From assembly GCA_001599595.1 (NCBI GenBank), contig BCHH01000001.1:3687068-3751067 (forward strand): a DNA stretch of 64,000 nucleotides, given 5' to 3'. Each line of letters starts with the position of its first letter. Within the stretch, counting starts at the first letter, position 1. Below, in pieces: positions 9,554 through 54,941 of this stretch. This stretch comes from Beverwykella pulmonaria (taxonomy: Eukaryota > Ascomycota > Dothideomycetes > Pleosporales > Melanommataceae). The translations under genes and the position numbers were made by a program. Under the pieces are notes generated by a model. The model was given only the letters and a program-made list of their open reading frames with translations. It was not told the DNA's origin and did no database searches.

Positions 9554-12500
9554 TTAAACTCGTCGCATTTCAATCTTGCATATCCATACCCATCCATGTC
9601 CAGTACCAATGCCAATCATTTTCTCGGATACTGTCGCACGTGACGGTCGATACTCAGACGGTAGCCATAATACATTCTTAGAATTATATGTTATCCACAT
9701 GCCATCCGAACTTAAACCTAGGCATTGCTTGACGGTGTTATCCTCTAACCCTGACGCCAGCCAGATCGAGTCGTGTGAGAAGGCTACGGAGTTGACCGCA
9801 TTGCTGTGGCCTTCGAGCTTCGACAGGCACTCGCCGCTGCTCGCATCCCAGATCTTGACCGTCTNNNNNNNNNNNNNNNNNNNNNNNNNNNNNNNNNNNN
9901 NNNNNNNNNNNNNNNNNNNNNNNNNNNNNNNNNNNNNNNNNNNNNNNNNNNNNNNNNNNNNNNNGTCCCATGACCCTGACGCCAGCCGGGTCGAGTCGTG
10001 TGAGAAAGCTACGGAGTCGACCGAACTGCTATGGCCCTCGAGCGTCAACAGGCAAGCGCTCCATTTCTTTTGCATAACTGGCTTTATTGTAATCCAGTCC
10101 GGCTCTTCTCTCTTAGAAAACCTTCTTACTAGGCTGCAAGTCGGGCTAAATATAAGTGCAGATACATACGCCTGAAGAGGACTTTTCTCTATTACCCACT
10201 TGTGGGACATAATAAATCGGCGTGCATCTTGAACTAGTTTATTTAGTTCAGATGCGTCTGCTCTTCCCTAGGTTATGTTAATATATACTATGTACATAGC
10301 ATTACAGGCTTATAAATTACCTGTATAAAAGCCTCAAGCTTTGCCACTAATACTACTCCTTTGGATATGCTCTTGCATAGGCTAAGTGCCTCTAGCCAAT
10401 AGAGATAGTTTTGTCTTAGAAAGTCGTCGACAGCGCCTCTATCCTGCAGATAATCATTAAGATTTGTAGAAGAGCTAGGATTCCAGTCGCAGAGATGATC
10501 GATCCAGTAGATACACGAGTAGCGTGACGCTGCTAGTGGATCTGGATCCGGCGGCTTAACTTTCTCAATAGGATATCCTGGCATGTATAGATCATACATG
10601 TCCCGTCGGAGTGTCCTGGACATAACTTGGAGCGATCTAGAGAAGATTTCGTAGTGAAATTTCTCTGTTCCAGATGGAAATATTTCATAAAAAACCTCCG
10701 CGAAGAGAAAGTCTTTTGCAGATTGGTGCACAAAGTAGACTGTATCTTCCTGAACAGTAAGAAATGAGCCGCAATAGTTAACGATTTCTAGCAGTGACTC
10801 ATGATTTTCAGTAACGTTCTCGGGCATGTTGATAAGAGATGAAAGCTCCCTAAGTGTGACGGGTCGGTATACGATCGCGATGGAAGCCAGTATGCGCTTG
10901 CAGAGATTAGCATTGACCGATGTGCATATCTGCTGCATCATTCGATCATATAGCAAGTCAAGTCCAGGTGGAAATACAGACAGCATTGCGACGGTGTTTA
11001 ATCGTGGGGTGTTTTCGAGGTTTTGACAGACTAAAGCTACCCAGAGAAAGGTGTTATTGGCATTTAAAGACAGATAGTGGAACACGGCGTTCTGGGTATT
11101 ACTGTCGTACTCCTTTTTATACTTCAGCTGAAGTACTTTGTACTTAACGAATTTGCTGATAGCTGTAGAAATGGATTCTGTGTTAAGTTCAAGGCATATC
11201 TTAACTTTATGCCTTGCTCTCTTTAGATGTTCTTCAATGTCAGGCCAGTTGCGGCTAGAAACAATCCACTTAGCACGATGAAAGTTGGACAACTCCTCTT
11301 GGGTAATAAACCCTAGCAGTTTTGGCAAGTCTGCTATGCATTCATCGAGCGCATCAACAATTAGGTACGTGCTGTTCAAGCTCGGGTCACGCAGGATGTT
11401 GGTAAGTATCTCGGATAATGCAAACCAGGCATTTGCATCCTCGAAGAGAGCCTTGCCTGCGTAATCATACTTCTTCCGAATGTGTGAGATGAGCGAAGGC
11501 TGTTGGTCGACAATTAAGAACAGCAGCCCTCGCAGTACCGCCGTGGCGTTGTTGAGCCGCGAGTCCGTGGCCTGACAGAAAAAGTAGGATAGAACATCTG
11601 TCTTGGCTATCGACGTCTTGAGTTCATTAACAATGCCGCAGAGAAGCATAGTTTTGCCCTTGCCAGGATCGCCTTTGATCCATAACAGTCGGCTCTGCTG
11701 GTCGTACCGCCATTGTCGGAAGTTGGAATTATAGAAAATCCAACGGTATGATTCCTTCAACAAGCCACCCCTGGTATGTTCAATGCGCTTCTTATCGTCA
11801 CGAGGATCGGTATGGCGTAAGTCTTGAATACATCTCTCTCGCTTATCAATCACCTCTCGGACCCGTTTATATGCATTCCCTGCCCCTTCACCGTAGTAAA
11901 GGGGGATCTCAACATCTAGAATGCTTAGCAATGAGTATACTTTATCTTCTGCACGCTTTGTCTGGCGGCGTTCCATCCACAAAAAAAGCTCATCTACTCT
12001 GAATTGAGATAAACGAGTTCCTTGAAGCGCGGGGGTAGGAATACCAGTTATCTGCTGAATCTGTTGCTTTAGAGAGCTTCTGTCACCTATTCGTATATGC
12101 TCGCACGAGAAGAACTCGATTGAGCGAGGTGCAAGGAGTTCCTGGAGTGTCCAACCCCTGGTGAACCATCTACTTCGGCCCAGATCCGAGTCCCATTGTG
12201 AATGGAGATTATCGTCGATGCAACGGCCCGTTACATCCGACAAATAGACGTAGCATCGAGTCGCGTTGTGGTACCAGCGAAACATGGAATTGATAGCCTG
12301 CGACAGTTCGGCAGAGTTCGATTTATTAATGCAACAGGTATCCACCCAGAAGTATTGCAGATTATCATGATTTGCTTGCTCTCCACAGAACCGAATTTTC
12401 TCATATCCAAGCTTCTTCTCGCCAGTACCATTTACAAGGTCTTCAAATGTGGGTTCCTGCGCATCTTCGAGCCATGTGTGCGACAGGATCGCATAGGGCG

Positions 12501-12573
12501 GTATTACCTCGTCGTCAGCGAAAGCCCTAGTAAGACTGTACTCGGCAGTGCCGCTGCGTTGCAGAAAACGCAT
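9554..12573 (-). CDS. HET-NACHT-WD40 (HNWD) fungal NLR, allorecognition-type, interrupted by assembly gap
   Basis: Two exons on the minus strand: 12573-10321 and 10267-9554. The 53-nt intron (10320-10268) is phase 0 and restores the conserved linker ...SELNKLVQDARRFI. HET domain: AILSHTWL (about 28-35), FWVDTCCI (about 75-82), RGWTLQELLAP (about 139-149). NACHT: P-loop GDPGKGKT (301-308) and Walker B IVDALDEC (about 405-412). C-terminus: WD40 units of the LEGHSxxVxSVAFSHDS type on both sides of a 100-N gap, then the closing segment WLPSEYRPS. This is the architecture of Podospora HET-E/HET-D/HET-R, NLR-like receptors that trigger incompatibility cell death. The true length is unknown because the repeat array is truncated by the gap. 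The frame is open on both sides, so the gene may be intact. Transcribed convergently with the HAM1-like gene. Confidence 0.93.
9865..9964. other. Assembly gap of exactly 100 N
   Basis: Exactly 100 Ns inside the WD40 array of the HNWD gene. The round number suggests a placeholder for a gap of unknown size. The two flanks are near-identical WD units (SVAFSHDS...LASG), as expected when an assembler collapses high-identity 126-bp repeats. Confidence 0.95.
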
Positions 12574-13284: not shown

Positions 13285-16200
13285 CTATTCCTCCTGGCTA
13301 CCCACCATTTTCTCCTTCCACTCGCTCTCCAGTGCCTGCACCCTCTCAACCCCCTTTGCATTTCCTACGCCCTCCTCCCAATCCGCCCACTTCTTGAAGA
13401 AAGCGGCGGCTCTCTTTTTCTTCATCTTCAACTTCGCCATGCGCTCGAACAACGACCGCACGTTCTCTTCGCCACCATGAGCCATTTCTAGACTCAGATA
13501 CACATCCCAAACATCACCCTTCTTCGGCCACGTACTTACGAGTCCTTCAAAGATAGTGCGGCCGCGCTCCGGATCCCCGTTCTCGGACTTGAATTCTAGG
13601 GCCGCAAATTTGGTTGTGAGATACCGATGCTCAGTCGAGGGGACAGATTGCGTGGCGCGTTGGAGAAGATTGCGGGCGCGGGCTGGGGAGGGAGGTGAGA
13701 GGGTAGACATGAGGAAGGAGGCGTAGGAGAGCCAGAGAGAAGGAGTTGAGGTGAAGGATTTGTTTTTGGCCATGCTTTGGTAGAGGGTGTCTGCTTTCTG
13801 TTCTTGTGTTAGTAATGTGACTAATAGATGAAGAAGACCAGAGCAACTTACGTCGAGCTTGCCGGACGAAATGTAGATCTTGATCATCCGCTCATGCATC
13901 TCGCGCGAGTCGTTATACTGACACGCCTCCTTGAAAGTCTCCTGCAAGAGATCGTCGCTGCCAAAGTCGTTCTCGAGATGCAGCAGCGCGGTCCAGACAT
14001 CGAGCCTCTCCTTCTCCTCGCGCGAATTCATGGTCGCTAAAGCGCGTCTAGCGATCTGCCGTGCCTTTTCGACCTCGTTGAGCTCACGCTGGAATACCAT
14101 ATATCGAACCCAGAGCTCAGCACTGTTTGGTTGGCCGAGTAGAAGGCGTTCAAAGTCGGCAACGGACTGAGGGCCGAAAGCGTCGAGATCGCCGGTACGG
14201 TCTTCCTTGATGGTGGCCTTCTTGTGCTTCTTCCTTTTCTTCGTAGCGTCTTCGTCCGAAGAGATGTCGGAAATTGCGTTTTGCTCGTCAAAATCGAGTG
14301 AAGCGCCGGTCCAGTCGAAGCCAGAAGTGGTCAAGCCAGCCGCTGGGGATGGCTTCAGAGGATTGGCCGAGTCATCCTCATCTACCTCCTCCTGGTCCGC
14401 CATATCTTCATCGCTTTGTGCGCTCTTCACACTTCGCATCTCGGCATCTTCGTCGTCAACTTCTTCGTCGTCAACTTCCTCCTCAACTTCTTCAGCGTCG
14501 GAATCAACATCTGATTCATCTCCTTCATCATCTTCCTCGTCCTCCAACTCTTCACCTGTAATGTAGGAGTATTTTAATCCAAAATTGACCCTCCGCTTCG
14601 CCATCTTGATCTCCAAAACCTTAGCTTTGACGACGTCGCCCTCCTTGTATAGGGATTTGACGTTCTCAACTGGTTTGTCTGCTAGCTCGGATTTGTGACA
14701 TAGCCCACTGACATTGTGCGAGTTGTCTACGACAAGGAAAACGCCATAGTCTTCAACATGCCGAACTTTGGCTGTGACGATTTGTCCCACCTGCATGTCA
14801 CTGAATTGGAGGAGCGGTATGTACGTTCCTTCAACTACAGATTTTTTCAAGCTCATCTGGGGACTCTTCAAGTTCTCGTTTAGCGCAATGATCTTTCCAG
14901 TGACCAGCTGATCAACCTGGAACGCTGATTTCCAATCCTTCAAGTACGTGTCCGAAAGATGGGATACTCGAACGAATGCATCAACATTCTGGCCAAGGCG
15001 AACGAACACGCCATTTTCGATAACGCGTTTGATGAAACCTCGGAGCACCTGGTGAACCTGCAATTGCGATCTGTCCTTGATCTCAGGGTCCTTAATGGGT
15101 AGTGATGAGCTGAGGACTCGGGACGGCCTGGCAGATAGTCCGAGCCTCTTGTTGGGCATGTCGATCTCGATGACACAGACTCGCACAATGTCGCCCTGCT
15201 TGTAGTTGGAGGGCTTCGCATTCTCGTAGTCATCTGCAAGCTGTTCAAGATAGATAGGTCCTGCGATGTTGTTGTTGATCTGCACAACAATTGAAGATTC
15301 GTTGACCTTTGTGACACGTGCAGGCAGCACCAGCCCTTCTTTTAGATCCTCAAGCCCAAGTGACTTATTCGAAGAAGTTGATGTAGCGGTTAAATCTAAC
15401 CGGCCAGCGGCGACATCAACAGCTTTGACGTGCACCTTAAGAGCACATCCGACTGGAAAGTTGCCCTCGACGTCTGCAAGCAGCGAGAGATCGTCTGAAA
15501 GGTCAAGGAGGTCAATTCGGCCGCGGACGTTTGCCGAGATATTCACCCAGACGTATCGATCGGCAATGTTATTCACGTATGCAATGAAGGGATCCCCAAC
15601 GGTGATGTTGTGCAGAGCCAAGATATCAGCTTCGCTTCTCAGCTTTGCTTTCTTTGCTGTCAGCTCGAAGATCGGGACCTTTCCTTGGCGATGGGTGATT
15701 GGAAGGAACCGATAATTCCGAGCATCGTGCATGCCCAGAACCCTGACCTTGATGTTCTCGTTTTTCTTGAATTGACGTAACGGATGCTTCTTGTCTTCAA
15801 TCTCGTCCCAGTTGTTGAACATCTCAGCGACGGAAATGCGGCCCTGGATGTTGTCTGCAACTTGGACGTTGATCTGGTCACTTTTGACGGACTTTATACG
15901 GACCGTGGTGCTGGTTCCGAATGATAGATCTGCAGTTGACTTTATCTTATCATCCACTGCATTCAAGGTAGCTTCTGCACCCGCTTTGTCAGGCTGTGAT
16001 GTCGCTTCTATCTCTGTGTCGGACTTCATGGAGAGCCAAAGTCGGGCTTTGTCTGAATCTACGTGAGTGACTCGAGCCGTGATAGATTGATCCTTCCGGA
16101 GGCCGAAATTGGGAGACTGAGCCATGTCTTCGGGAAGTTGTGACTGGAAGAGTAGACCGACAATGCCGCCGCCAAATTCAATAAATATCTTGTCTGGTAA

Positions 16201-18732
16201 GACTCCACGCACAAAGCCATGCACAGATTCGCCCTTCCGGACGTCCTCAAATTTGGTGATAAGTGTTTGAGCTTGCGCATCCTTTCGGAGGCTTGGCTTG
16301 TTTGATAAAACCACCGTCATTGACTTGTGATGCTTGTCAAGGACAACGAGATCATCGAGCGGAGCTCCAACGCGTATGCGACTCATCGTGGACTTGTCCT
16401 TCTTCTCGGAGCCATCTGTTAGATGTCCTATTCTGAGGACACCTTTAATACCATGGCCAAGGTCTACAGTGGCCGACTCCAATGCTTTCTCAATCACATT
16501 TCCCTTGACGAGGTCTCCTGGTTGGAGAGATTGAAAGAGAGTCTCCTTGTCAGTGTCTATCGCGTTCGGATCTTTGCACGAGACCAACATACGGTCCTGT
16601 GCGTGATCAATGGAAAGTACACGGACGTTGACTACCTGTCCTTGTGAGAAATGTTTTGTGGCGTCCTCGATGTAGGCTTCACTCATTTCCGATGCCGGCA
16701 ACCAGGCCTTGACTTCTCCGTAAAATTGGACCACTGCCCCTGACTGGTTGATGCTGACAAGTGTTCCAGGTCCGGTTGCTCCTTCAACAATACGCGAGAA
16801 ATCAGTCCATGGCTCTGCCTCCGAGTTGACGAGAGACTTTTTCAGTGTAAGTTTGACGTGGTGTTTCTCCAAGTCCGTCGACAAAACCCTTGCTGTAACG
16901 GATGCTCCTTCCCTGAATTTACGTTCTGGATGTTGGAGGTGGACGTCGGCGAGGTGCATTTCAGGCACTAGAGCAATAATTCCATCCGAGAGATTCACCA
17001 AAACGCTGGTGGATCCGCTCTTGTCCGCGAAGAGTTTCTGGACCTTGCCTTTGACCACCTGGCCAACACTGATATCCTCAATGCGGAGGAACGGCTGATC
17101 TAACACGCTTTGTTCTAGGGACACTTGGAACAAACCATCTATAGCATTGTATCCGATGACTCGTGCACGATGCGTCGACTCCAGCTTGAAGGTGCCGGCA
17201 GAATCTGAGAGCTTCTCAATCCTGCCGTCTGCAAGCTTGGAAATATGCGCAAACCCGATCACATCTCGAACACCTAGATCAAAGTAGACCCCAGCCAATG
17301 GCTCGACCTTGATAACTTTTGCTTCTTCGACGAATGAAGAGATTGGAAGGATGTCCAGAGGTTGCTTCTTCTGTTTGGGCTTCCCAGACATGCGACAAGA
17401 GAGGGATATAATATGCTCCAAAAACGAAACCCCAAGCTTCTTCGGGTCTGAGTCTGGGCACGTAAAAATGATTCTCGCCTTAACCTTCGACCCGATTTTA
17501 TGCTTTTCGCTCACGTCCTCCCCTTTTTCAGCAGCTCTAGAATGGATTATGTCTGCCGTGGCATCCATAATTCCCATGATCTTGCCAGTAATCGTATTGG
17601 TTGTCGAGTCGGTGACCAATACTTCTACAGCAGTTCCAGGAAGCAATGCATCGATGGTAGGTGCTTTGGTCAGAACATTCGCCTTTTTGACATTTCCAGA
17701 TTTTTCCTGGTCTGCAGACAGCTTGACAATCCTCCCGTTGGAGTTCAAGCCAGAAACTAAGCACATGAATACAGCTCCCTCTTGAACTTTCGCATGTACC
17801 ACCTTTGAGCCAAGCTCGCTCTTTGGTAGAAAGCCTTTCGTCTCTGTATCCTCCAAACCCATGTCCATGACTAGACCGTGGTCTTCGTTGCTAACGACAG
17901 AAGCTTGAATCATCCCATTGGCAACCAGATTCGATTTGTCAATGCCGCGATTTGTGAGTCTCGGATGAATTGACAACTCTATCCGCTTTTTTGTCTTTGT
18001 AACTCCATTTGCAAGAGCGTCCTCAGCCGTGGACGTTACGTACGCCCTCAGGTATTGTCCTACGAAGAAAAAATTTTCGAGATCAATATCTTCGGTATCT
18101 TCCGAGTCGTCCTCCACATTGCTCGATTCCTCCTCCTTTGCCAACTTCTCGACCCTGGCTGTCAACTTATCGGAGATGGCGGTGATGGGAACGTATCCGA
18201 CTAGATTGTTAGGAAGGGCGAGGACGATATGCTGCGCAGTCAACTCGGCGACTTGGCCCAGAACCATTGTGCCGATAGCGAGTTTCTTGTAGCTTAAGCC
18301 CGCTACTCTCGTTATTTTTTCTTCCTCTGCAGCGTGTGACTTCTTGCTCTTCTTGCTCTTCTTCTTCTTTCCGGCCTTGGGGGCGTCCTGCATACCAGCA
18401 TCAGAGCCCTCATCGCTGAGGCCATCGTCCCCGCTGCGCTTGAGCCCAGATTGCTCGAAAAGAACGTCTTGGGTAGCCTTGATCTGGATTTGCTTGTGCT
18501 CCAGAGGTGTCAATACGCTAGCCCCCCCTCGAGGGAAGGATCTCTCCTCGTCTTTGAATATCGACGGCTTGGGCTGTGTGCTTTCCGTCTTTTCAATTGG
18601 CGTCTTGGTTGATTTTGCTACGTCGGCCGTAAAGTCGGATTTTTGGCGTTTTGCAGACCGATCATGAGAGGCGCTCTTTTCTTTCTTCGCAGAGGCAGCG
18701 CCTTGGTCTGCCTTTCGTTTAACGGGGGCCAT
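13285..18732 (-). CDS. RRP5: rRNA biogenesis protein RRP5
   Basis: Two exons on the minus strand: 18732-13852 and 13797-13285, 1797 residues. The start is set at MAPVKRK (18732) because it opens the basic, nucleolar-type N-terminus; the frame is open 26 codons further upstream. About a dozen S1 RNA-binding repeats follow (for example VGQVVKGKVQKLF, GQIVTAKVRHVEDYGVFL). Then comes a strongly acidic stretch (EELEDEEDDEGDESDVD) and C-terminal HAT/TPR-like repeats (LLLGQPNSAELWVRYMVFQ, RARNLLQRATQ). This is the full-length RRP5 architecture. RRP5 acts in the nucleolus in early pre-rRNA processing, with the S1 part needed for 60S and the HAT part for 40S formation. The 54-nt intron (13851-13798) has no in-frame stop, so unspliced RNA would add 18 residues. 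Divergent from the CDT2-like gene. Confidence 0.95.
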   Translation of the reverse strand: MAPVKRKADQGAASAKKEKSASHDRSAKRQKSDFTADVAKSTKTPIEKTESTQPKPSIFKDEERSFPRGGASVLTPLEHKQIQIKATQDVLFEQSGLKRSGDDGLSDEGSDAGMQDAPKAGKKKKSKKSKKSHAAEEEKITRVAGLSYKKLAIGTMVLGQVAELTAQHIVLALPNNLVGYVPITAISDKLTARVEKLAKEEESSNVEDDSEDTEDIDLENFFFVGQYLRAYVTSTAEDALANGVTKTKKRIELSIHPRLTNRGIDKSNLVANGMIQASVVSNEDHGLVMDMGLEDTETKGFLPKSELGSKVVHAKVQEGAVFMCLVSGLNSNGRIVKLSADQEKSGNVKKANVLTKAPTIDALLPGTAVEVLVTDSTTNTITGKIMGIMDATADIIHSRAAEKGEDVSEKHKIGSKVKARIIFTCPDSDPKKLGVSFLEHIISLSCRMSGKPKQKKQPLDILPISSFVEEAKVIKVEPLAGVYFDLGVRDVIGFAHISKLADGRIEKLSDSAGTFKLESTHRARVIGYNAIDGLFQVSLEQSVLDQPFLRIEDISVGQVVKGKVQKLFADKSGSTSVLVNLSDGIIALVPEMHLADVHLQHPERKFREGASVTARVLSTDLEKHHVKLTLKKSLVNSEAEPWTDFSRIVEGATGPGTLVSINQSGAVVQFYGEVKAWLPASEMSEAYIEDATKHFSQGQVVNVRVLSIDHAQDRMLVSCKDPNAIDTDKETLFQSLQPGDLVKGNVIEKALESATVDLGHGIKGVLRIGHLTDGSEKKDKSTMSRIRVGAPLDDLVVLDKHHKSMTVVLSNKPSLRKDAQAQTLITKFEDVRKGESVHGFVRGVLPDKIFIEFGGGIVGLLFQSQLPEDMAQSPNFGLRKDQSITARVTHVDSDKARLWLSMKSDTEIEATSQPDKAGAEATLNAVDDKIKSTADLSFGTSTTVRIKSVKSDQINVQVADNIQGRISVAEMFNNWDEIEDKKHPLRQFKKNENIKVRVLGMHDARNYRFLPITHRQGKVPIFELTAKKAKLRSEADILALHNITVGDPFIAYVNNIADRYVWVNISANVRGRIDLLDLSDDLSLLADVEGNFPVGCALKVHVKAVDVAAGRLDLTATSTSSNKSLGLEDLKEGLVLPARVTKVNESSIVVQINNNIAGPIYLEQLADDYENAKPSNYKQGDIVRVCVIEIDMPNKRLGLSARPSRVLSSSLPIKDPEIKDRSQLQVHQVLRGFIKRVIENGVFVRLGQNVDAFVRVSHLSDTYLKDWKSAFQVDQLVTGKIIALNENLKSPQMSLKKSVVEGTYIPLLQFSDMQVGQIVTAKVRHVEDYGVFLVVDNSHNVSGLCHKSELADKPVENVKSLYKEGDVVKAKVLEIKMAKRRVNFGLKYSYITGEELEDEEDDEGDESDVDSDAEEVEEEVDDEEVDDEDAEMRSVKSAQSDEDMADQEEVDEDDSANPLKPSPAAGLTTSGFDWTGASLDFDEQNAISDISSDEDATKKRKKHKKATIKEDRTGDLDAFGPQSVADFERLLLGQPNSAELWVRYMVFQRELNEVEKARQIARRALATMNSREEKERLDVWTALLHLENDFGSDDLLQETFKEACQYNDSREMHERMIKIYISSGKLDVSCSGLLHLLVTLLTQEQKADTLYQSMAKNKSFTSTPSLWLSYASFLMSTLSPPSPARARNLLQRATQSVPSTEHRYLTTKFAALEFKSENGDPERGRTIFEGLVSTWPKKGDVWDVYLSLEMAHGGEENVRSLFERMAKLKMKKKRAAAFFKKWADWEEGVGNAKGVERVQALESEWKEKMVGSQEE

Positions 18733-19220
18733 TGCGGGCGATGGACGACGTTCGTGGTTTCGCCCAAGAAATTCTCGAAGTTCGAAAAATTGTCTGAGCC
18801 GGGCGGTCACACGCGGCAGAAACCTCTAGTGGCGTACAAGAACGCCCGTGCGCATTTCGTGGGTCCTTTCTCTCTGTAGTTCAAATTGAACACAGCAATA
18901 AGCCAAAATGGCAAACGTTAGCCTTTGCTATACTTCTGCGATTTACTTCTATTGAGGTACATTGCACTCTACCTCCACTTCAAGTATGGCATGTGTGGCT
19001 GGAGGTGTGGCGCAAGCTCTTTGCCAAGCCACTTTAGCTCGCGTTCGCGACTCCGCGTTCCTCTCGTGTGCGCGTTTGAGGCCAATGCTCATTGCCAGCC
19101 TTCGCTCCCGTTCTGTACATAACCTCGTCCCCTCGCCTCACCATTACCATCATCATCACCATCACCTCTACCTTTGGACCTTTCATTGCTTGCGTTGTAT
19201 ATGTGTACCAGTAGAAAAGC
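18733..19220. promoter_or_regulatory. Shared divergent promoter of RRP5 and the CDT2-like gene
   Basis: 488 bases between two start codons pointing apart. Near RRP5 there is GAAAAATT (18784-18791), resembling the core of the RRPE element of yeast ribosome-biogenesis promoters. Near the CDT2-like gene there is a CAT/CAC triplet run (about 19140-19170) in the presumed leader. No clear TATA box. Confidence 0.5.
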
Positions 19221-21385
19221 ATGTCGTCCCCGTTCGTAACCTTTCATGGGCTGCAAGAGCCGCTTCCCGAGCTGCCCTCTTCATCGCCTCCTCCCACCTT
19301 CACCGCAATGGGCACCCGGAAACCCAAAAAAGCGCCGCCCATCACGCCGAAACGCTTCACCCGCTTCTTCACTCCACGTACCTCGACACGCGGATCATCC
19401 TCTGTCTCGCTCGGCGCCTCTGGCCGCCAGCTGCAAGATATCACACGAACCGCCCTCAATCGCAGCAAGAATGCTTCGTCGAGAACAACTCCTCGCAAGA
19501 CGGTGAATTTTGCCGACGCCATGGTGGAGAGGAGCGTTGAGACGCCCAAGAACACCAAAAAGCGGAAGACACCGTACTTGTCGCCCGAGACATCGCCAGC
19601 CCAGTCCTCCCCCTCCAAGCGATCCCGATTCGTCACGCCCCCGCCATTCGACATTCTCGAGGATGACGAGCCACCTGCTTTTGATGAGCCGTCTCTACAC
19701 GTTGAGCCAATTCGGCGATTGAAGAGCCTGGGTGCCACCTCGCGGAAACTACAACGGTCGTTTGGGGGGGCTATGGCCATTGGACGTGGTTTTCTGCAAG
19801 ATCATTGTACATCCTGGCAGGAGCAGACGGCCAACTTCTACAGCGGCTCCGATGATTGTCACCAATTGCCTAACGAGGCCCCACCATTCTGCACTGCGAG
19901 CTGCAATAGTAAGCCTAAGTGAACCTGATAACTGATATGTATTTGTCCTGACACCTAACAGCAAACTCGCTTGTCGCCGTAGGAGATGAAGACGGGTGGG
20001 TGCACTTGCTCGACACCGATGATAACCCTGCGGTCAACTTCAGCAAAGCCCACGTATCATGGCGAGCACATTCAAATGCCATCATGGATGTGCAATTCTC
20101 GTCGGACGACTCCTATCTAGCAACAGGCTCTGGCGACCAGACAGCTCAGATCATCGATGCACGAACACAACAATGCGTCAACATCCTTGCGAAGCACAAG
20201 TCGTCCGTTAAGCAGGTACGCTTTCAGCCTGGCGACGATAAGATAGTCGCGACATCGAGCCGGGATGGGGCGGTTCAGATCTGGGATTTGAGGTGCAAAG
20301 GTGGAAACATGAATGTACATTCCGCTTGGGGACCCAACGCTCCATATGCCAACTCCGTCCGAACGTTAGCTGCCGCCCATGCAGATAGCGCATACAGTAA
20401 TGGGTCTGCCACCGCAGGCACAAAAGGCTCCAAGTATGTATCCATTCTTCGCCCTCTAAACGGGATGCATACTAACTGTGACAGGGAGTTGATGGGCAAG
20501 AGCGAATCATACAGCCGTCGAAATGATATATCCGTTACGGCTCTCTCATTCCTTCCCACAGGCCGGCAGCATCTCCTTTTGACTGCATCAGATGCATCAA
20601 CTTGCGTCAAGCTGTGGGACATAAGAGGTCGATACTCGCTCAGAGGTCCCGCCATTCCAATCTCGACTACGAGACACCCAGAGTCGCACAACCGGCACAG
20701 ACATTTTGCCATCAACTCTCTGACACTCAGTGGTGATGCGTCACGCTTATACGCCATCAGCAAAGATAATAGCGTCTACGCATATGCGACTAGCCACCTC
20801 ATCCTCGGAGTCGCCCCTGAACTCTCTGCACAGTCCTCCAAACAGAGATATTGCGGAGTTGGCGAGGAAGGGCTCGGTCCGATATACGGCTTTCGACACC
20901 AGAATTTCCATGCCGGATCGTTCTACGTCAAAGCCTCGCTCCGCAAAGCTTCTGGCGATCAGCCTGAGCTCCTTGCTGTTGGTAGCACTGATGGTTGCCC
21001 AGTGATATTCCCGACAGACGAGAACTTTCTCAAGCGCGAAATACGAAGAGATGACGAAGCGGATGAACTTCCTGAGGCTGTATCGCGAATTTCCCGGCCA
21101 GTTTTATCTCGAAATTCAGGTGGAGGCCGGTTCCCAAGTTCTTTAACAGATACAATTCCCATCTACGAACACGGCACCCCCCTCATTCGAGGACATGACG
21201 CTGAAGTAACCGGTGTCTCCTGGGCGTCGAATGGAACATTAGTCAGCGTCGGTGACGACTTTAAAGTCAGACGGTGGAGAGAAGGAAAGCAGGCACGTGA
21301 TCTCAGAATGGGCGGGGAAAAGGACGGGCGGCGATGGCAATGCGGATGGGCTGCCGTCGAAGATGGATTCGATGACGATGAGTAG
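19221..21385 (+). CDS. CDT2/DTL-like WD40 protein, predicted CRL4 ubiquitin-ligase substrate receptor
   Basis: Three exons: 19221-19908, 19962-20433, 20485-21385; 686 residues. The N-terminal 200 residues are basic, proline-rich and disordered, with ITPKRFTRFFTPR near residue 45. The WD40 propeller follows: AHSNAIMDVQFSSDDSYLATGSGDQTAQ, KHKSSVKQVRFQPGDD, then IWDLR and LWDIR. The two WDxR motifs are the DDB1-binding DWD box of DCAF proteins, and the order of blades fits DTL/Cdt2. CRL4-Cdt2 degrades Cdt1 and other targets on PCNA-loaded chromatin in S phase. Intron 2 (51 nt) is stop-free and in frame. The alternative is another nuclear WD40 DCAF; the family call rests on motif order, not an alignment. 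Confidence 0.78.
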
Positions 21386-37050: not shown

Positions 37051-40000
37051 TTAATCCTGTTTACTCCTGTGGGAGGGCGTCTTAAAAAGGGTATCGGTAC
37101 TCGTAGCCTCACTTGAATCCTGTGTACTGACTGTGTGGAATGAGAAGTCCAGCTCGCCCACAAGTTTCTTCACCGCACTGCCAAACCTGTCAGTCATCTA
37201 TACCCGTAACCTTGAATCGACTACAATACTCACCTCAATAACTTCTCAATATCCATATGAATACATCTAGTACTAATCTGCATGACCGCAAACGCAGCAT
37301 ATCCCGGCTCCGCAATATGTCTCACGCCCAATATATCTCGATCGACAGCCTCCATCTTTGTGCTCAGCTTATACGACTCCGGTGCTGCGAGGTAGGGAGG
37401 CAAGGGTTGGCCGCTCGTGATGCTAGAGGAGAGGAGGGCCAGTAAAGATGTGATTTCGTGGGATGTGATGTCGACGGAGCTGACGATGCGTTGGAAGTCG
37501 CGAAACCATTGAGCCGAGGAGTCTGAGTCCGAGGAGTTGTGGTTGGCTTGCGCGAAGGTGGTGGATGCGTAGCCTATGAGAGCGGTGTAATTTGTGATAC
37601 TGAAGACGTTAGCTTACTGATAAATAGAAATGGCTGCGAGTACCTACTTAGTTACGCATTGGATGATTAATTCGTACTCTTTTCTAGGAAATTTACCGCC
37701 AAGTGGGAACTCCCATTTCACCATTTCGGAGTGCATTTTGAGTCCCTCCAGGGTGAGCATTTGCTTTGCGAATACCTTGTTTCGAGCTTTAGTCAGTAAT
37801 GAAGCTGGGGATCTTGCGTCGGTTGGGTCTCCCTCATCGCCGCGAATCCGAGCCATTACGGTTTCATGCATGATGGAATAGTAGTTGGCAGAGAGATATA
37901 GCGCCCCACCCAACTTTTGCCTGAGAACCGAGTGCTCAGAGACCGGATACGGGAACACAGTCCAGAAAAAGGCCACAGCCAGCCCGCCCACAACGGTCGC
38001 CAACCGATAGGGCCCAAGAAGGTAGATGGGGTAATATGGCTGGCCATTCGACGTTGCAACCGCTCTTCCAACTTTCCGAACTTCCAGTTCGTAGCCAATA
38101 ATCATAGTAGTGGTGACTACACTGATTAAAGCTGCAATGACTACCTCTGGCTTTTTGAGTGCGAAGTAAAATCCGAATGATGTCAAAAACCAAAGGAAAA
38201 CGATGATGCCCGGCGTCTTCTTATCAGGGATGTAATAGCAAAGAAAGGCGACGACCATGGCGATTATGGTCCCAGTGATCCTGAGGAGGAAAGTGTAGAC
38301 AGTTGCTCCGGACGTGGGTACCATACTGATAGCAACCATGATCATTGCCCAGACGATCCGCTGTTTAACAAACCAGTCTTGCGTATCGCGCAGGTACACG
38401 ATTATTGCAATACTCAAGGTGGCACAGGCCGTACGGAAGCCGAACGCCGAGTCGGACGATCTCAGAAACCTTGCAATGGCTCTAATAGAGTTGCCAAACT
38501 TCTCCCACGTATTTACTGGTGGTAAGTGCTCTGGCTCCTTCCGCATATTGTACGCTTCACCCATGTAGACGATGTTATTTCGTTCCATCCCTGCCAAAGT
38601 CGTTTCGTTATCGTGGTTACTATCTCCTTCCTTGAAGATGCTAACAAACCATTTTTCTAGCCGTTTCTTTCCTGGGTTGATGAGCTTTGACTTGCGAGTT
38701 GCCAGATCTATCCCGTCTGAGAACCGAGCTAACTCCAGCACCGCGCAGCTGACAGAGTGGAGAAGAAAGATGATGTAAAGAACAAGGTAGAGTTGCCTTC
38801 GACTGTGGTGACGGGACCAATGAGGCTCCTTCTCTATTTCGAGGGCCGAATGACGAAGTGAGTCTGGACTGAGAACGAAGTTCTCCTGGATCTTGATGCC
38901 TTTGGTTTCGACCCAATGTTTCAAGGTCGTCTCTTTTCCGTGGGAGAAGGCATCGCACTGCTTTTCGAGATAGGACACAAAATCTTCATCTCCTGGCTGC
39001 ACTAGTTCGCCTGTTATTTCTGGATCTGTTCCGATTGATGCTTTCTTCTTTGGCGTTTTGATCAATTGAAGTCGCATGAGTGTGTGCTGGAGTCCCCCAT
39101 CCATGGCCTGTATGATCGTTGCAAAAGGGGCATGGACCGACTTCATGATCTCATTCCAGTCTTGCACGGCCTGCTGTCGTGTTCTCTCTGAGTCGGAATT
39201 AGGGTCCTCAAAACCCTCCGCCCCCCAATGATTCCAGTGGTTCAGCTCGGCATATCGGTCGAAAAGGTCCATGAGAGATCCAAGCCCCACCAAAGGAATC
39301 ATAATAGCGCGAAGGCGTTTGAAAACCCCCTCAAAGTCCTCGGGGGTGAGTTTCCCCCAAGCTATCTCCCGCTTTGCAAAGGGAAGGTCGCCATACAGTT
39401 TCCCGTGCAGCGCAGTGAACGCAGCGGTCATCTTCTTCAACGCAGCAATTTCCGGTTTCATCGCCGGCGTCTTGGATGTTGGTTCTCCATTCGCATCTGG
39501 CGATATATTTTTGCCGAAAACGTTGGACGTCTCCAAGCTCTGGAAGTACTCCTTGTGCGCTTGTAGGGTCCCTCTTAAAAGCATAATGTAGCCCGATATT
39601 TCCTTCGTCACAACCTGGCGGCACGTAATGGGGAGAATGAGTAAAGACACTCCGGTCGCAATCGCATGTCCAGTTAGGAACGTGTAAATCAGCCGTCGGA
39701 TGAACATCTCGCACGCTAGTGTAGTTGTGAACTGTGGGCCGTAAGTCGCGGCGATATTGACGAATATGGAATACATAATCGCGGGGAAGGCGAGCTGAGG
39801 AAATCTGGCTTTGATAGTGTTGACAAGCCAGATCTGGAGAAAGAGCCAAACGGCGCAGACGGCCGACTGGGAGGAGTTGTATGGATCGGGAGGTTGTCCA
39901 GCAGGTGTTGTGCGAAGGCGGGCCTGGCAGGCTGACCAGAGCATCAACATGTTGACAGCACCGCCGAGACATGTGGCGAAGATGTTCATGGTCATGGTTT

Positions 40001-40425
40001 GGATGAACTTTGCTCTCGGCATTATGCAAAACCCCAGGATGGAGATAATGGCCACAAGGTAGCCCAAGGTGGTGTACTTCTCCGCGATAACATCAGCTTG
40101 GTACCTATCCACTCATCAGCACTCAGATTTGCAAACTTGATCTGTACATGAGCACATACATAGCCAGAGCGATAGCAGGAGGCAGAGTAGCCTTCATCAT
40201 CATAAGCCAGGTTGGAATATCCATTTCCAATTTCCCCCATAGTCGCGCAATCCTCGATTTGCTGTTGGCATCTTTACTAGCTGTCTCTCCATCGCCGTGC
40301 GCGTCGGTCAATATCGTCTGGCCGTTGACATGACTCGGCTTTTCGGTTGGCTTAGTCGCATCCCCATCAATGTCGTCATTAACATTTCTGCCTATTTCAG
40401 AGCTACTCGACGCCGATGCCGCCAT
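37051..40425 (-). CDS. Aromatic-acid exporter-like membrane protein (ArAE_2/FUSC type)
   Basis: Four exons on the minus strand: 40425-40160, 40104-37648, 37599-37234, 37186-37051; 1074 residues, all phases closing. The start is at MAASASSSSEIG. Structure: polar N-terminus; first block of six helices (from WLMMMKATLPPAIALAMYQ through ATGVSLLILPITC); a large cytosolic helical region (PEIAALKKMTAAFTALHGKLYGDLPFA); second helix block (ATLSIAIIVYLRD, WAMIMVAISMVPTSGATVYTF, GIIVFLWFLTSFGFYFALKK, LATVVGGLAVAFFWTVFPYPV); then a C-terminal soluble domain. This matches the fungal putative ER transporter 6TM N-terminal plus DUF2421 family, related to FUSC fusaric-acid resistance exporters. Substrate unknown. 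Confidence 0.88.
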
Positions 40426-51985: not shown

Positions 51986-54780
51986 TGTGTAGTCTGTTAT
52001 CAGATTGAAGAGCATAGTTATGGCGTATCTGGGTTTCTGCTTCATGATTTTCGGATGGTGTTAGGCATTGAGACCTGCTGCCCGGGCTAGATGGGTCAGG
52101 TTGGAGTTTGGGAGAATATTTTGGGAGGCTTATTTGGGTTAGTTGGGCGGGTAATTGGACCTACGGGCTCGAAATTTTACAATACGACTGTCCTTTTTCA
52201 TGTTACATCTTTGTATCTTGCACCACATTTTGTTCATCTCAAGTGTACTATTTTCATCTTGCATCTTGTATCGTACATGACCGTCAGTGCCTCTCACGTG
52301 CCCTCTTGTCGAGGCGTATACGAGGACCCTGCACTCAATCCTTGATTCGCAGTCCTCTTTCACTTGCAACTCGCGAAAGACCTTTCTGTTCTCTATATGC
52401 TCTTCACGAACTCTCAGGCTATCCAACGCCTGACTCAATCTATTCCTTTCCGCTAATTGTGCCAATTCAACCTGCCCATCCCCGTCTCAACCCTGGTCAT
52501 TCACCCATACAGCAGATATCTAGTCTGACGACGTAACCATATCGTATGTATGGAGAAGTGAGTTTGCTGACACATGCACGCGCGAGCAATCAAATACTCC
52601 TCTTTTAAGGTAAAATCAACTGTTAACACTTTTTCCTCTTCGATAACCTTCAACGAGTTGCCGGAAATCCAAGATCTCCCGTTCTTGGCACAGGCTGCAT
52701 AGACTTGTCTCGCTATTACAGAAACTCTACATTTTCCCCGGCCATAGTTACCTTTCGCTTCTTCACTCTCATGGACGATATCACAAGAGTGCTCGACGAT
52801 GCCAGCGTTGCTTTCACAGCCGGAGCCGCTATCAAAGAAGAATCTCCTCACGAGTCCATGTCAAGGCCGACACGAACTCCATAATCACAGACACCAGCAA
52901 CAACACCTCAGTACAGAAGCGCCTTTGAGGAACCATAGAACCTTCCAGACACTTTAGTGCCAGAACGTATCTCGGACGCACAACGGCAGGATTCTACATG
53001 CTGGAACACGCTACCCATGCAGTGCAAAATTTGGACTCCCCGGGGGGCGCGAGCATGGATCCTGCATACAGTATACTTCACCGCCCGCTGCGGTAAGTCT
53101 TATCTGATAGAGAAGGATCTTGTGTTGACGGCTAGAAAGTAGGTTTAGAACTGGCTAAGGAATGAAAATCTGCTTCTTGATGGGGTTACTGAGAAAATAT
53201 GGGGGAATGTAGCTACGTATCGTGTTGGGGAGGTGAGCCGGGGTGTCGTGACGGATTGGAAGAAGGATGAGAAGGAGGAGGAGGAGGATATGCGCAGTGG
53301 AAAAGGGCTACGGCCAGGTTCTCAAAGAAAAGACTGGTGAGATATAGAAGAAACTGTCAGAGAGACTTACACCACAGAAGATTAACCTCAGCGGAACCAC
53401 CTACCAGAAACTCCAAGCAGGCGATCTCGAGAAAACGAAGTGATTACTTGGTCCTCACAAAGCCGCACTCAAAGAAACCCCAACTACAAAGACGCTCCTC
53501 TTCCATATACTTCCGAAAACCCTGATATTCAACGTCCTCCTTACTTACAATATTAAGAATTCAGGATTTATTTTCTTCATTCTGGGGATTTTCCCACTTC
53601 TGGATACACTTCTTCTCCCTTATTAAGACCAATCTTCCGCTTGCCGCTCTCCAGTCCAAAATGCGGCACCCTCCTACACGACCTACAAGCCCGTCTGAAA
53701 CATTGAAAATAAGTACGAACCTGCAGACCCCACAATCCAGTATCCGATAATACACATATCCCCGTCTCCCCCCGGCTTACTACGAACATATGCCATCATT
53801 GCGGCTTTAACCACAGCATCGACAGTGGATGCATATGGCAGGTTCAACCGCCCCGGCAGCCAGTTGTAAGGTGTTCGTAGTCCGAGAGTGCAGGTTTAGA
53901 GGACGGGTAGAGTGAAGGAGGGCGTGGTAGTGAAGATAATGAGCATGTGCGTGAAGCACAGTCGGCGGTAGATGTGGCCGCAATGTAGGAGTCCTGTCTG
54001 AGGTTTTTTCGTCGCAGTTTGAACAGTTTCCAGTGAGTGCTGGCAGGGATGGTGGGATTTCAAGTTGGAATGTGACATATTGGGATTGTAAAAGTCAGTA
54101 GAGAACCAGGGTCGAAGAGGGGGGCTTGAGGAGTATAAGGAGGCTTTTGGGATTAAGGAGTGTCCACGATGCGAGATGGTGATTGAGAAGAATAAAGAAC
54201 CGACAATATAAGGTGTGTGAACAGTAAGACGTGTTTTTATTGTGTTATTCGAGAGAGATCCGAGAGCGCGAGAGAGATGGATGGACATTGGACTGGGTTG
54301 ATGGCCAGGCTTGGAAGAGAGAACTGTTGGGAAATAGGGAGCAGGCTGAAATACAAGGAGACTGAGACAGGACATGAATAAGATGAGAGTCCAATCCTGT
54401 AGTTTCGGGATCAATAGGAGTAAACTTTCTTGCTCCCTTGACCTGGATTGACTTGGCGTTCCCATGAGCCGTCCTGCAAGATAACCACAGGCAGTGTATA
54501 TCTGTAGCAAATGGTCTTTGAAATTTCAATGTTAGAGATAGAGTTGACCTTGCAAGTCTCCACATTTCCCAGTGCAGTGTTTGCGCACAGTTCGTAATAA
54601 TTAACGCAGCCTCGGCCCACTGCACTAGCCGCGCCCCACATCTCCTCGCACAATGCCAAAATTCCATTTGAAGTGGTTATTGTTCTCTTCTTGCCCTGAT
54701 CATCGCTTTTTCTAATCAAATTTGCTGTATATATTACTTTTGAAGTTCGGAAATTTTCCATAATTCCAAATAAACACTTC
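51986..54780. other. 2.8-kb accessory DNA with a decayed gene
   Basis: Apart from the relic at 52772-53869, no gene is supported. One CACGTG near 52295. A minus-strand ORF (54411-54794) overlaps the tRNA and was rejected. Confidence 0.5.
52772..53869 (+). pseudogene. Decayed protein-coding gene of unknown family
   Basis: Starts with an ATG (MDDITRVLDDASVAF) and runs about 1.1 kb with coding-like segments in changing frames: MLEHATHAVQNLDSPGGASM, a GTAAGT donor-like site at about 53093, NENLLLDGVTEKIWGNVATY, YGQVLKEKTGEI, TPQKINLSGTTYQKLQ, a membrane-type segment NSGFIFFILGIFPLLDTLLL, and YDAYGRF-like ends before a final TAA at 53867. At least five in-frame stops and one frameshift interrupt it, several at positions where Trp or Arg would fit. 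I do not recognise the family. Confidence 0.6.
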
Positions 54781-54923
54781 GGGCCTGTGGCCAAATGGCA
54801 AGGCGCCTGACTACGATTGCTCCCTTCGCAGCTTTATCAGGAGATTCTAGGTTCGAGTATGTTTACCAACGCTCCCCTTTCAATGAATCTGTACTGATTA
54901 TTCCTCAGTCCCTAGCAGGCTCG
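54781..54923 (+). tRNA. tRNA-Arg(ACG) gene with two interruptions
   Basis: Acceptor stem GGGCCTG (54781-54787) pairs with CAGGCTC (54916-54922, one G-U); discriminator G at 54923. D arm GCC...GGC. Anticodon stem CCTGA (54806-54810) pairs with TCAGG (54837-54841); loop CTACGA with anticodon ACG at 54813-54815. A 19-nt intron (54817-54835) sits right after position 37, the normal site. Variable loop AGATT. T stem CTAGG (54847-54851) pairs with CCTAG (54911-54915). The T loop reads TTCGA, then a 52-nt insertion, then TC. Without both inserts the RNA is 72 nt with all stems paired. A-box TGGCCAAATGG is present; a T9 terminator follows. The insertion splits the B-box. Either a doubly interrupted functional tRNA or a recently disrupted copy. 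Confidence 0.8.
54857..54908 (+). other. 52-nt spliceosomal-intron-like insertion in the tRNA T-loop
   Basis: Begins GTATGT, contains TACTGAT with the branch-type A 11 bases before the end, then TTCCTCAG. Length and signals match the mRNA introns in this window (47-57 nt). Removing it leaves T-loop TTCGATC. Cutting two bases later (54859-54910) would instead leave TTCGAGT and a consensus B-box GGTTCGAGTCC, so exact ends are uncertain. Confidence 0.65.
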
Positions 54924-54932
54924 AAAATAACC

Positions 54933-54941
54933 TTTTTTTTT
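54933..54941 (+). terminator. RNA polymerase III T9 terminator
   Basis: Run of nine T starting 10 bases after the tRNA discriminator base, the standard distance for Pol III termination. Confidence 0.8.

Follow-up and report, generated by a model that had tools for sequence, protein, structure and literature searches.

Spliceosomal-Type Introns in Nuclear tRNA Genes of the Ascomycete Beverwykella pulmonaria

The removal of introns from nuclear tRNAs is ascribed to an endonuclease and a ligase. What, then, is to be made of a tRNA-Arg(ACG) gene that carries, besides an ordinary intron at 37/38, a second insert in the T-loop with the signals of an mRNA intron? Such a gene lies in the window analysed here, that is, the whole 64,000-nt stretch of contig BCHH01000001.1 from Beverwykella pulmonaria. 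A passage of the tRNAscan-SE 2.0 paper gives one intron at most per eukaryotic tRNA gene (PMC8450103).

In a preliminary description it was proposed that the locus encodes a tRNA of 72 nt, with paired stems and a T9 downstream, once two inserts are taken out, and that it combines an ordinary 37/38 intron with an mRNA-type intron in the T-loop. The first proposal was confirmed at exact coordinates (Table 1) and by ARAGORN, which calls tRNA-Arg(acg) on the spliced 72-mer; the second holds on anatomy, splicing being the presumed outcome. The unspliced gene gives no ARAGORN call, and removal of only the 52-nt insert is enough for a call of tRNA-Arg(acg) with a 19-nt intron. Across the insert, the T-stem pairs at 5/5 and the acceptor stem at 7/7 positions. 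In the whole unspliced window, no tRNA was found by ARAGORN or by Rfam at its cut-offs. The covariance-model check suggested earlier, run with the insert present on the unspliced region alone, gave 21.6 bits with the Rfam tRNA model, under the cut-off of 29. Among the junctions offered earlier, 54856/54909 is the one that gives both GT...AG ends and a 7-nt T-loop. The insert then has a GTATGT 5′ site, a TACTGAT branch sequence with its A 11 nt before the end, and a CAG 3′ site (end CTCAG).

Table 1. Coordinates of features in the window, and interrupted or tRNA-like genes found elsewhere in the genome (grouped by search route).
Feature	Position	Strand	Basis or remark
tRNA-Arg(ACG) gene, three exons and two introns	54781..54923	+	ARAGORN after insert removal; stems
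Same gene, contig scale	G000:C1:3741848-3741990	+	
Exon 1, tRNA positions 1-37	54781..54816	+	
37/38 intron, 19 nt	54817..54835	+	Ordinary tRNA-endonuclease type, without GT...AG
Exon 2, positions 38-58	54836..54856	+	
Insert at 58/59 (T-loop), 52 nt	54857..54908	+	U2-type by sequence
Exon 3, remaining T-loop and T-stem, acceptor 3′ strand, G73	54909..54923	+	
T9, Pol III terminator	54933..54941	+	
TATATA, probable TFIIIB site	54728..54733	+	Some 53 nt before the first tRNA nucleotide
A box TGGCCAAATGG	54788..54798	+	Sequence, assigned by the A-box consensus
B box, split by the insert	54850..54860	+	GGTTCGAGTAT; 8 of 10 informative positions still matched
CDT2-like WD40 gene	19221-21385	+	53-nt intron 19909-19961, placed by homology
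Transporter-like gene	about 37054-40425	-	55-nt intron 40105-40159, placed by homology
RRP5-like protein, S1 and HAT repeats	13288-18810	-	
HET plus NACHT-type protein	10291-12573	-	
Some 15 kb with no ORF of 200 codons	22000-37000		GC 0.43-0.49
Ser(GCT) L023, His(GTG) L031, Trp(CCA) L065, Leu(TAG) L066, Leu(AAG) L067 and L068, Leu(CAG) L069, Cys(GCA) L071, Ala(AGC) L072 and L073			tRNA family search; inserts away from 37/38
Arg(TCT) L186/L207, Glu(CTC) L216			B-box patterns
Elongator Met L202, Val(AAC) L204 and L205, Gln(CTG) L206			D-arm patterns
Asp(GTC) L140 and L155, second Arg(ACG) L145/L210, Pro(TGG) L146, Gly(GCC) L156 and L159, Ile(TAT) L162			58/59-junction pattern
Lys(CTT) L165			Branch-and-AG pattern
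L203, relic-like	G000:C1:2539350-2539650		Kin of elongator Met L202; anticodon loop CTCACA, shortened T-loop
L070, tRNA-like	G000:C17:711695-711764		31.1 bits; odd acceptor stem; relic or another interrupted gene
L124	G000:C11, B box near 307773		Pairing T-arm and acceptor flank a long inverted repeat, 120 nt total

The likeness of the insert to mRNA introns of the window, asserted in the preliminary description, was borne out: its 52 nt compare with 53 and 55 nt, and the make-up is the same. Removal of the 53-nt intron from the CDT2-like gene leaves 704 codons whose sole stop is the final one, and the transporter-like gene, once its 55-nt intron is taken out, reads through 963 codons in frame. 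Two more mRNA intron candidates of 56 nt in the latter gene were rejected, since their removal breaks the frame after codon 963. Two proteins of the window have their best named matches in Pleomassaria siparia (Pleosporales), at 78% and 76%. The small number of tRNA genes had first suggested a lichen-forming host, an idea abandoned on the strength of these matches.

The same architecture was found well beyond this locus. The 45.6-Mb genome holds 25 tRNA genes, the window gene included, with 30 mRNA-type inserts, and 30 further recognised tRNA genes without such inserts; both gene counts are lower bounds. With 55 recognised in all, and B-box matches below those of the reversed pattern (113 vs 140), tRNA genes are few in this genome, and the same tRNA searches found no gene for Phe or Tyr. 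In the genome-wide search with the tRNA family, 63 of 1174 candidates were scored; 32 matches passed E 0.001 and 39 passed E 10. Of the 30 inserts, 21 came from searches that made no use of splice motifs (10 by tRNA family, four by B-box and four by D-arm patterns, and three as second inserts of L140, L145, and L155). The other nine comprise the one in the window gene, noticed in the preliminary description, seven supplied by the 58/59 pattern and a single one by the branch-and-AG pattern. As the search patterns show no genome-wide excess over reversed controls (98 vs 157, 49 vs 63, and 113 vs 140 matches), each match has to stand on its own anatomy. For the 98-match pattern, 51 matches were inspected and yielded 12 interrupted tRNA genes, 39 of 46 newly read places being no such gene; for the 49-match pattern, 15 were inspected and comprised four interrupted tRNA genes, one ordinary tRNA and 10 non-tRNA places. 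For the 113-match B-box pattern, the first 100 matches were all inspected together with five of the remaining 13.

All 30 inserts end in AG, 29 begin with GT and one with GC; the junctions were placed with knowledge of the GT-AG rule, and a slide of 0-4 nt leaves the product unchanged. Every one has G as its first base and G at +5, as in a GTRNGT-like 5′ site. A CTRAY motif with its A 9-13 nt from the 3′ end is present in 27, and the three exceptions consist of one insert with CTAAT at 21 nt and two with no such motif within 25 nt. Lengths run from 47 to 58 nt in 29 inserts, with a single one of 72 nt, in agreement with the mRNA introns of the window, of which only two are confirmed by frame. 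By their sequence, these 30 inserts are U2-type introns, and that they are spliced is something we strongly infer.

The inserts fall at 13 different kinds of site, the outermost being 3/4 and 58/59. Twelve are at 58/59, a share biased by the seven that came from a pattern requiring that site, five at 53/54, two in the D-loop and two at 6/7. Single inserts were seen at 3/4, 10/11, 11/12, 12/13, 24/25, 43/44 and 52/53, in the variable region of Met and in the variable arm of Ser. None of the 30 is at 37/38. Ordinary 37/38 introns of 10-34 nt are also present in 19 of the 25 interrupted genes, with exact borders assigned by the analyst, and GT...AG ends occur in 0 of these 19. More than one spliceosomal-type intron is carried by four genes: the second Arg(ACG) gene (L145) and two Asp(GTC) genes have two each, and Arg(TCT) has three in addition to one at 37/38, its first exon being 3 nt long.

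Removal of the inserts restores recognisable tRNAs throughout. ARAGORN reports a tRNA in 25/25 genes when only the mRNA-type inserts are taken out, with the assigned anticodon in 22, in 5/25 when only the 37/38 introns are taken out, and in 3/25, two of them misread, when nothing is removed. With all introns removed, the count is again 25/25, Glu being without a clean anticodon owing to the assigned 37/38 border. In these 25 genes, 125/125 T-stem pairs and 170/175 acceptor pairs are formed; the five misses belong to one gene with a mis-set start, which pairs at 7/7 from the proper start. In controls with the partners slid by 1 or 2 positions, 113-159 of 300 paired. The preliminary description had argued against long decay of the window gene from its preserved stems, and that argument is strengthened: an architecture shared by 25 genes, all with intact stems, makes decay unlikely. 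An abundance of intact Arg(ACG) copies, named there as an objection, was not seen, as the spliced 72-mer matched this locus only in a genome search. A second, divergent Arg(ACG) gene (L145/L210), missed by that search, itself has two such introns.

Comparison of paralogues points the same way. In pairs interrupted at the same site, the exons agree at 75/75 (Asp), 71/71 (Gly), 72/72 (Ala), and 82/83 (Leu) positions, and the inserts, in gapped alignment, at 40/55 and 40/52, 34/54, 35/52, and 35/58, respectively; the flanks of these pairs are dissimilar. The two Arg(ACG) genes are more diverged, with 61/72 in the exons and 34/53 in the insert. Lys(CTT) L165 and L019 have their exons and a 30-nt 37/38 intron in common and differ by the 53-nt insert at 53/54. 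Ala L008 is without the insert of its paralogues L072 and L073, and Ser L014 without that of L023. Presence and absence are thus clean between paralogues, and the introns have therefore been gained or lost cleanly with the tRNA kept.

Uninterrupted copies exist for Ala(AGC), Ser(GCT), Lys(CTT), Asp(GTC), and Gln(CTG). All 50 GGTTCGANTCC and all 32 GGTTCGANCCC B-box sites of the genome were read, and among them no insert-free copy was found for His, Cys, Gly(GCC), Pro(TGG), Glu(CTC), Arg(ACG), Arg(TCT), Ile(TAT), Leu(AAG), Leu(CAG), or Leu(TAG), although variant boxes would escape such a reading. For Trp, elongator Met and Val(AAC), no insert-free copy was found in the tRNA family and D-arm searches. 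Only interrupted genes were found for His, Cys, Trp, elongator Met, Arg(ACG), Leu(AAG), Gly(GCC), and Val(AAC).

An earlier worry was that the split B box could weaken transcription of the window gene. It is eased in part, since the unspliced box matches 8 of 10 informative positions, one fewer than the 9 of the spliced form, and a TATA element lies upstream. Across the unspliced interrupted genes, the B box keeps 8-10 of 10. A TATA in the interval −70..−16 was present in 19/20 interrupted genes, 22/30 other tRNA genes and 162/1770 random sites, and a T5 or longer run within 40 nt downstream in 20/20, 28/30 and 41/1770, respectively; four of 24 interrupted genes were dropped from these counts for short upstream sequence, and Glu stands outside them. 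The TATA is no special compensation in interrupted genes, because it is equally a habit of ordinary tRNA genes here. According to passages of PMC3978253, some plants and fungi have a conserved upstream TATA that is important for their tRNA genes, and with it transcription in vitro can do without TFIIIC.

The 18 T-arm inserts are confined to 52/53, 53/54, and 58/59, where the AG or GT of the intron restores letters of the box. None lies at 54/55 to 57/58, where the B-box match would be lowest for 17 of the 18. Since the inserts sit only where box letters are restored in this way, TFIIIC binding may have filtered intron gains in the B box. The gap would also follow from a bias towards exons that end in G or A. 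The idea that the used T-arm sites are the best ones for B-box match was rejected: the observed mean is 8.28 against 8.51 for the others, and sites outside the box score higher.

Which machinery could remove the inserts, and are the genes alive at all? In parts of a review of tRNA introns (PMC4090602), archaeal genes are described with introns at sites like 3/4, 45/46, 53/54, and 59/60 and with several per gene, and ordinary 37/38 introns are present in 19 of the 25 genes here. One might thus suppose that the tRNA splicing endonuclease and ligase take out these inserts too, as for introns away from 37/38 in archaea, nucleomorphs and Cyanidioschyzon, with GT...AG being incidental. We regard this as very unlikely, given GT or GC...AG with G at +5 in 30/30 inserts against GT...AG in 0/19 of the 37/38 introns. 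A bulge-helix-bulge with a 4-bp central helix between 3-nt bulges was found in 0/29 inserts; the test weighs little because only 2/18 of the 37/38 introns here pass it. That the interrupted genes are instead decaying pseudogenes, with other copies doing the work, is highly improbable in our view. All stems are intact in 25/25 genes, exons stay identical beside diverged inserts in paralogues, and most interrupted isotypes have no insert-free copy among the sites read. The decay reading would draw on the five isotypes with uninterrupted copies, on the tRNA-like relics L203 and L070, and on the statement in the same review, as far as its passages on the matter go, that eukaryotic D- or T-arm insertions are mostly pseudogenes (PMC4090602).

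Gain or loss has evidently occurred, as in the clean presence and absence between Lys L165 and L019 or Ala L072 and L008, and the sites 53/54 and 58/59 were re-used repeatedly, as might be expected of a mobile element residing in tRNA genes, whether or not it can be spliced. Against such an element, the best local match among 29 inserts is 11 compared with a shuffled maximum of 10, the Asp pairs (18 and 12) excepted, and a junction slide of only 0-4 nt leaves no room for a long target duplication. The objection from transposable elements raised in the preliminary description found nothing in its favour in this comparison of the inserts with one another, and its likelihood is close to negligible. 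A different possibility concerns the transcript: the tRNAs could be cut from Pol II transcripts, so that the spliceosome meets them within capped RNA. To our knowledge, the other U2-type introns with which the spliceosome mostly deals all lie in Pol II transcripts. Nevertheless, a T5 or longer run follows 20/20 interrupted genes, compared with 41/1770 random sites, and 8-10 of the 10 informative B-box positions are retained, which makes a Pol II origin extremely improbable, if somewhat less so than a mobile element.

The explanation that we prefer, with a probability of roughly 0.88, is that the locus is a working nuclear tRNA-Arg(ACG) gene, transcribed by Pol III, from whose transcript the spliceosome would remove a U2-type intron beside the splicing at 37/38, and that the same would hold for at least 24 other genes. 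It rests on anatomy, splice signals, recurrence, integrity of the stems, conservation between paralogues and Pol III signals. In the scheme envisaged, Pol III would transcribe the window gene by means of the upstream TATA, the A box, the slightly altered B box and the T-run. The tRNA splicing endonuclease would cut out the 19-nt intron at 37/38, ligation of the ends following, and the 52-nt insert at 58/59 would be removed by the spliceosome as a lariat. Its removal would allow the T-arm and acceptor stem to fold and the ends to be processed. We infer transcription and lariat splicing for the interrupted tRNA genes generally, and the scheme would apply to at least 24 others in the genome.

Precedents exist for parts of this picture. 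The preliminary description had pointed to mRNA-type introns in Pol III-made RNA from yeast U6 snRNA; sections of PMC10484740 bear this out for fission yeast, in which U6 likewise has a spliceosomal intron, and attribute it to reverse splicing near the catalytic nucleotides. The difference is that U6, as presented there, is one snRNA of the spliceosome, whereas here 25 genes of at least 18 tRNA species are concerned, with introns all over the tRNA. U2-type introns outside mRNA are similarly known from ascomycetes, chiefly lichen fungi, whose nuclear rDNA carries them according to passages of PMC8527467; those, however, belong to Pol I transcripts, in contrast to the tRNA introns of this Pleosporales host. 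In archaea, nucleomorphs and Cyanidioschyzon merolae, several tRNA introns may occur at 3/4, in the D-arm, in the variable region and at 53/54, as excerpts of PMC4090602 and PMC9602550 have it. The archaeal and C. merolae introns are of the bulge-helix-bulge kind in the portions of PMC4090602 that treat them, unlike the GT...branch...AG introns of 47-72 nt described here. The ordinary nuclear 37/38 intron coexists with the new ones in 19/25 genes and differs from them in place and signals.

Among the matches listed in the open PMC literature, none reports a tRNA gene with a spliceosomal intron; a case could exist in subscription journals or preprints. The stem "spliceosom" is absent from the main text of the 2014 tRNA-intron review, where introns away from 37/38 are named for archaea, nucleomorphs and C. 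merolae (PMC4090602), and passages of further papers on disrupted tRNA genes name no spliceosomal intron either. The kind of intron is familiar; its occurrence in this class of RNA has no earlier case in the literature searched.

It is quite likely that spliceosomal introns make up a further class of nuclear tRNA intron, present in 25 of 55 genes, with up to three per gene and a first exon as short as 3 nt, and that translation then depends on the spliceosome. These genes would then lend themselves, as a natural system, to the study of how introns are gained and lost, with the same tRNA with and without an intron, a fixed target and repeated sites. They would also reveal a blind spot of annotation: in other genomes the class would have escaped tools limited to 37/38 in eukaryotes, and where a genome has oddly few tRNA genes, some may sit unseen behind such introns. 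If the explanation is true, many tRNAs need the spliceosome to act on uncapped Pol III transcripts with exons down to 3 nt. Because many tRNA genes of this fungus carry mRNA-like introns, its mRNA-splicing machinery is probably needed to make tRNAs on which translation depends, and its capacity for translation would be tied to its capacity for splicing.
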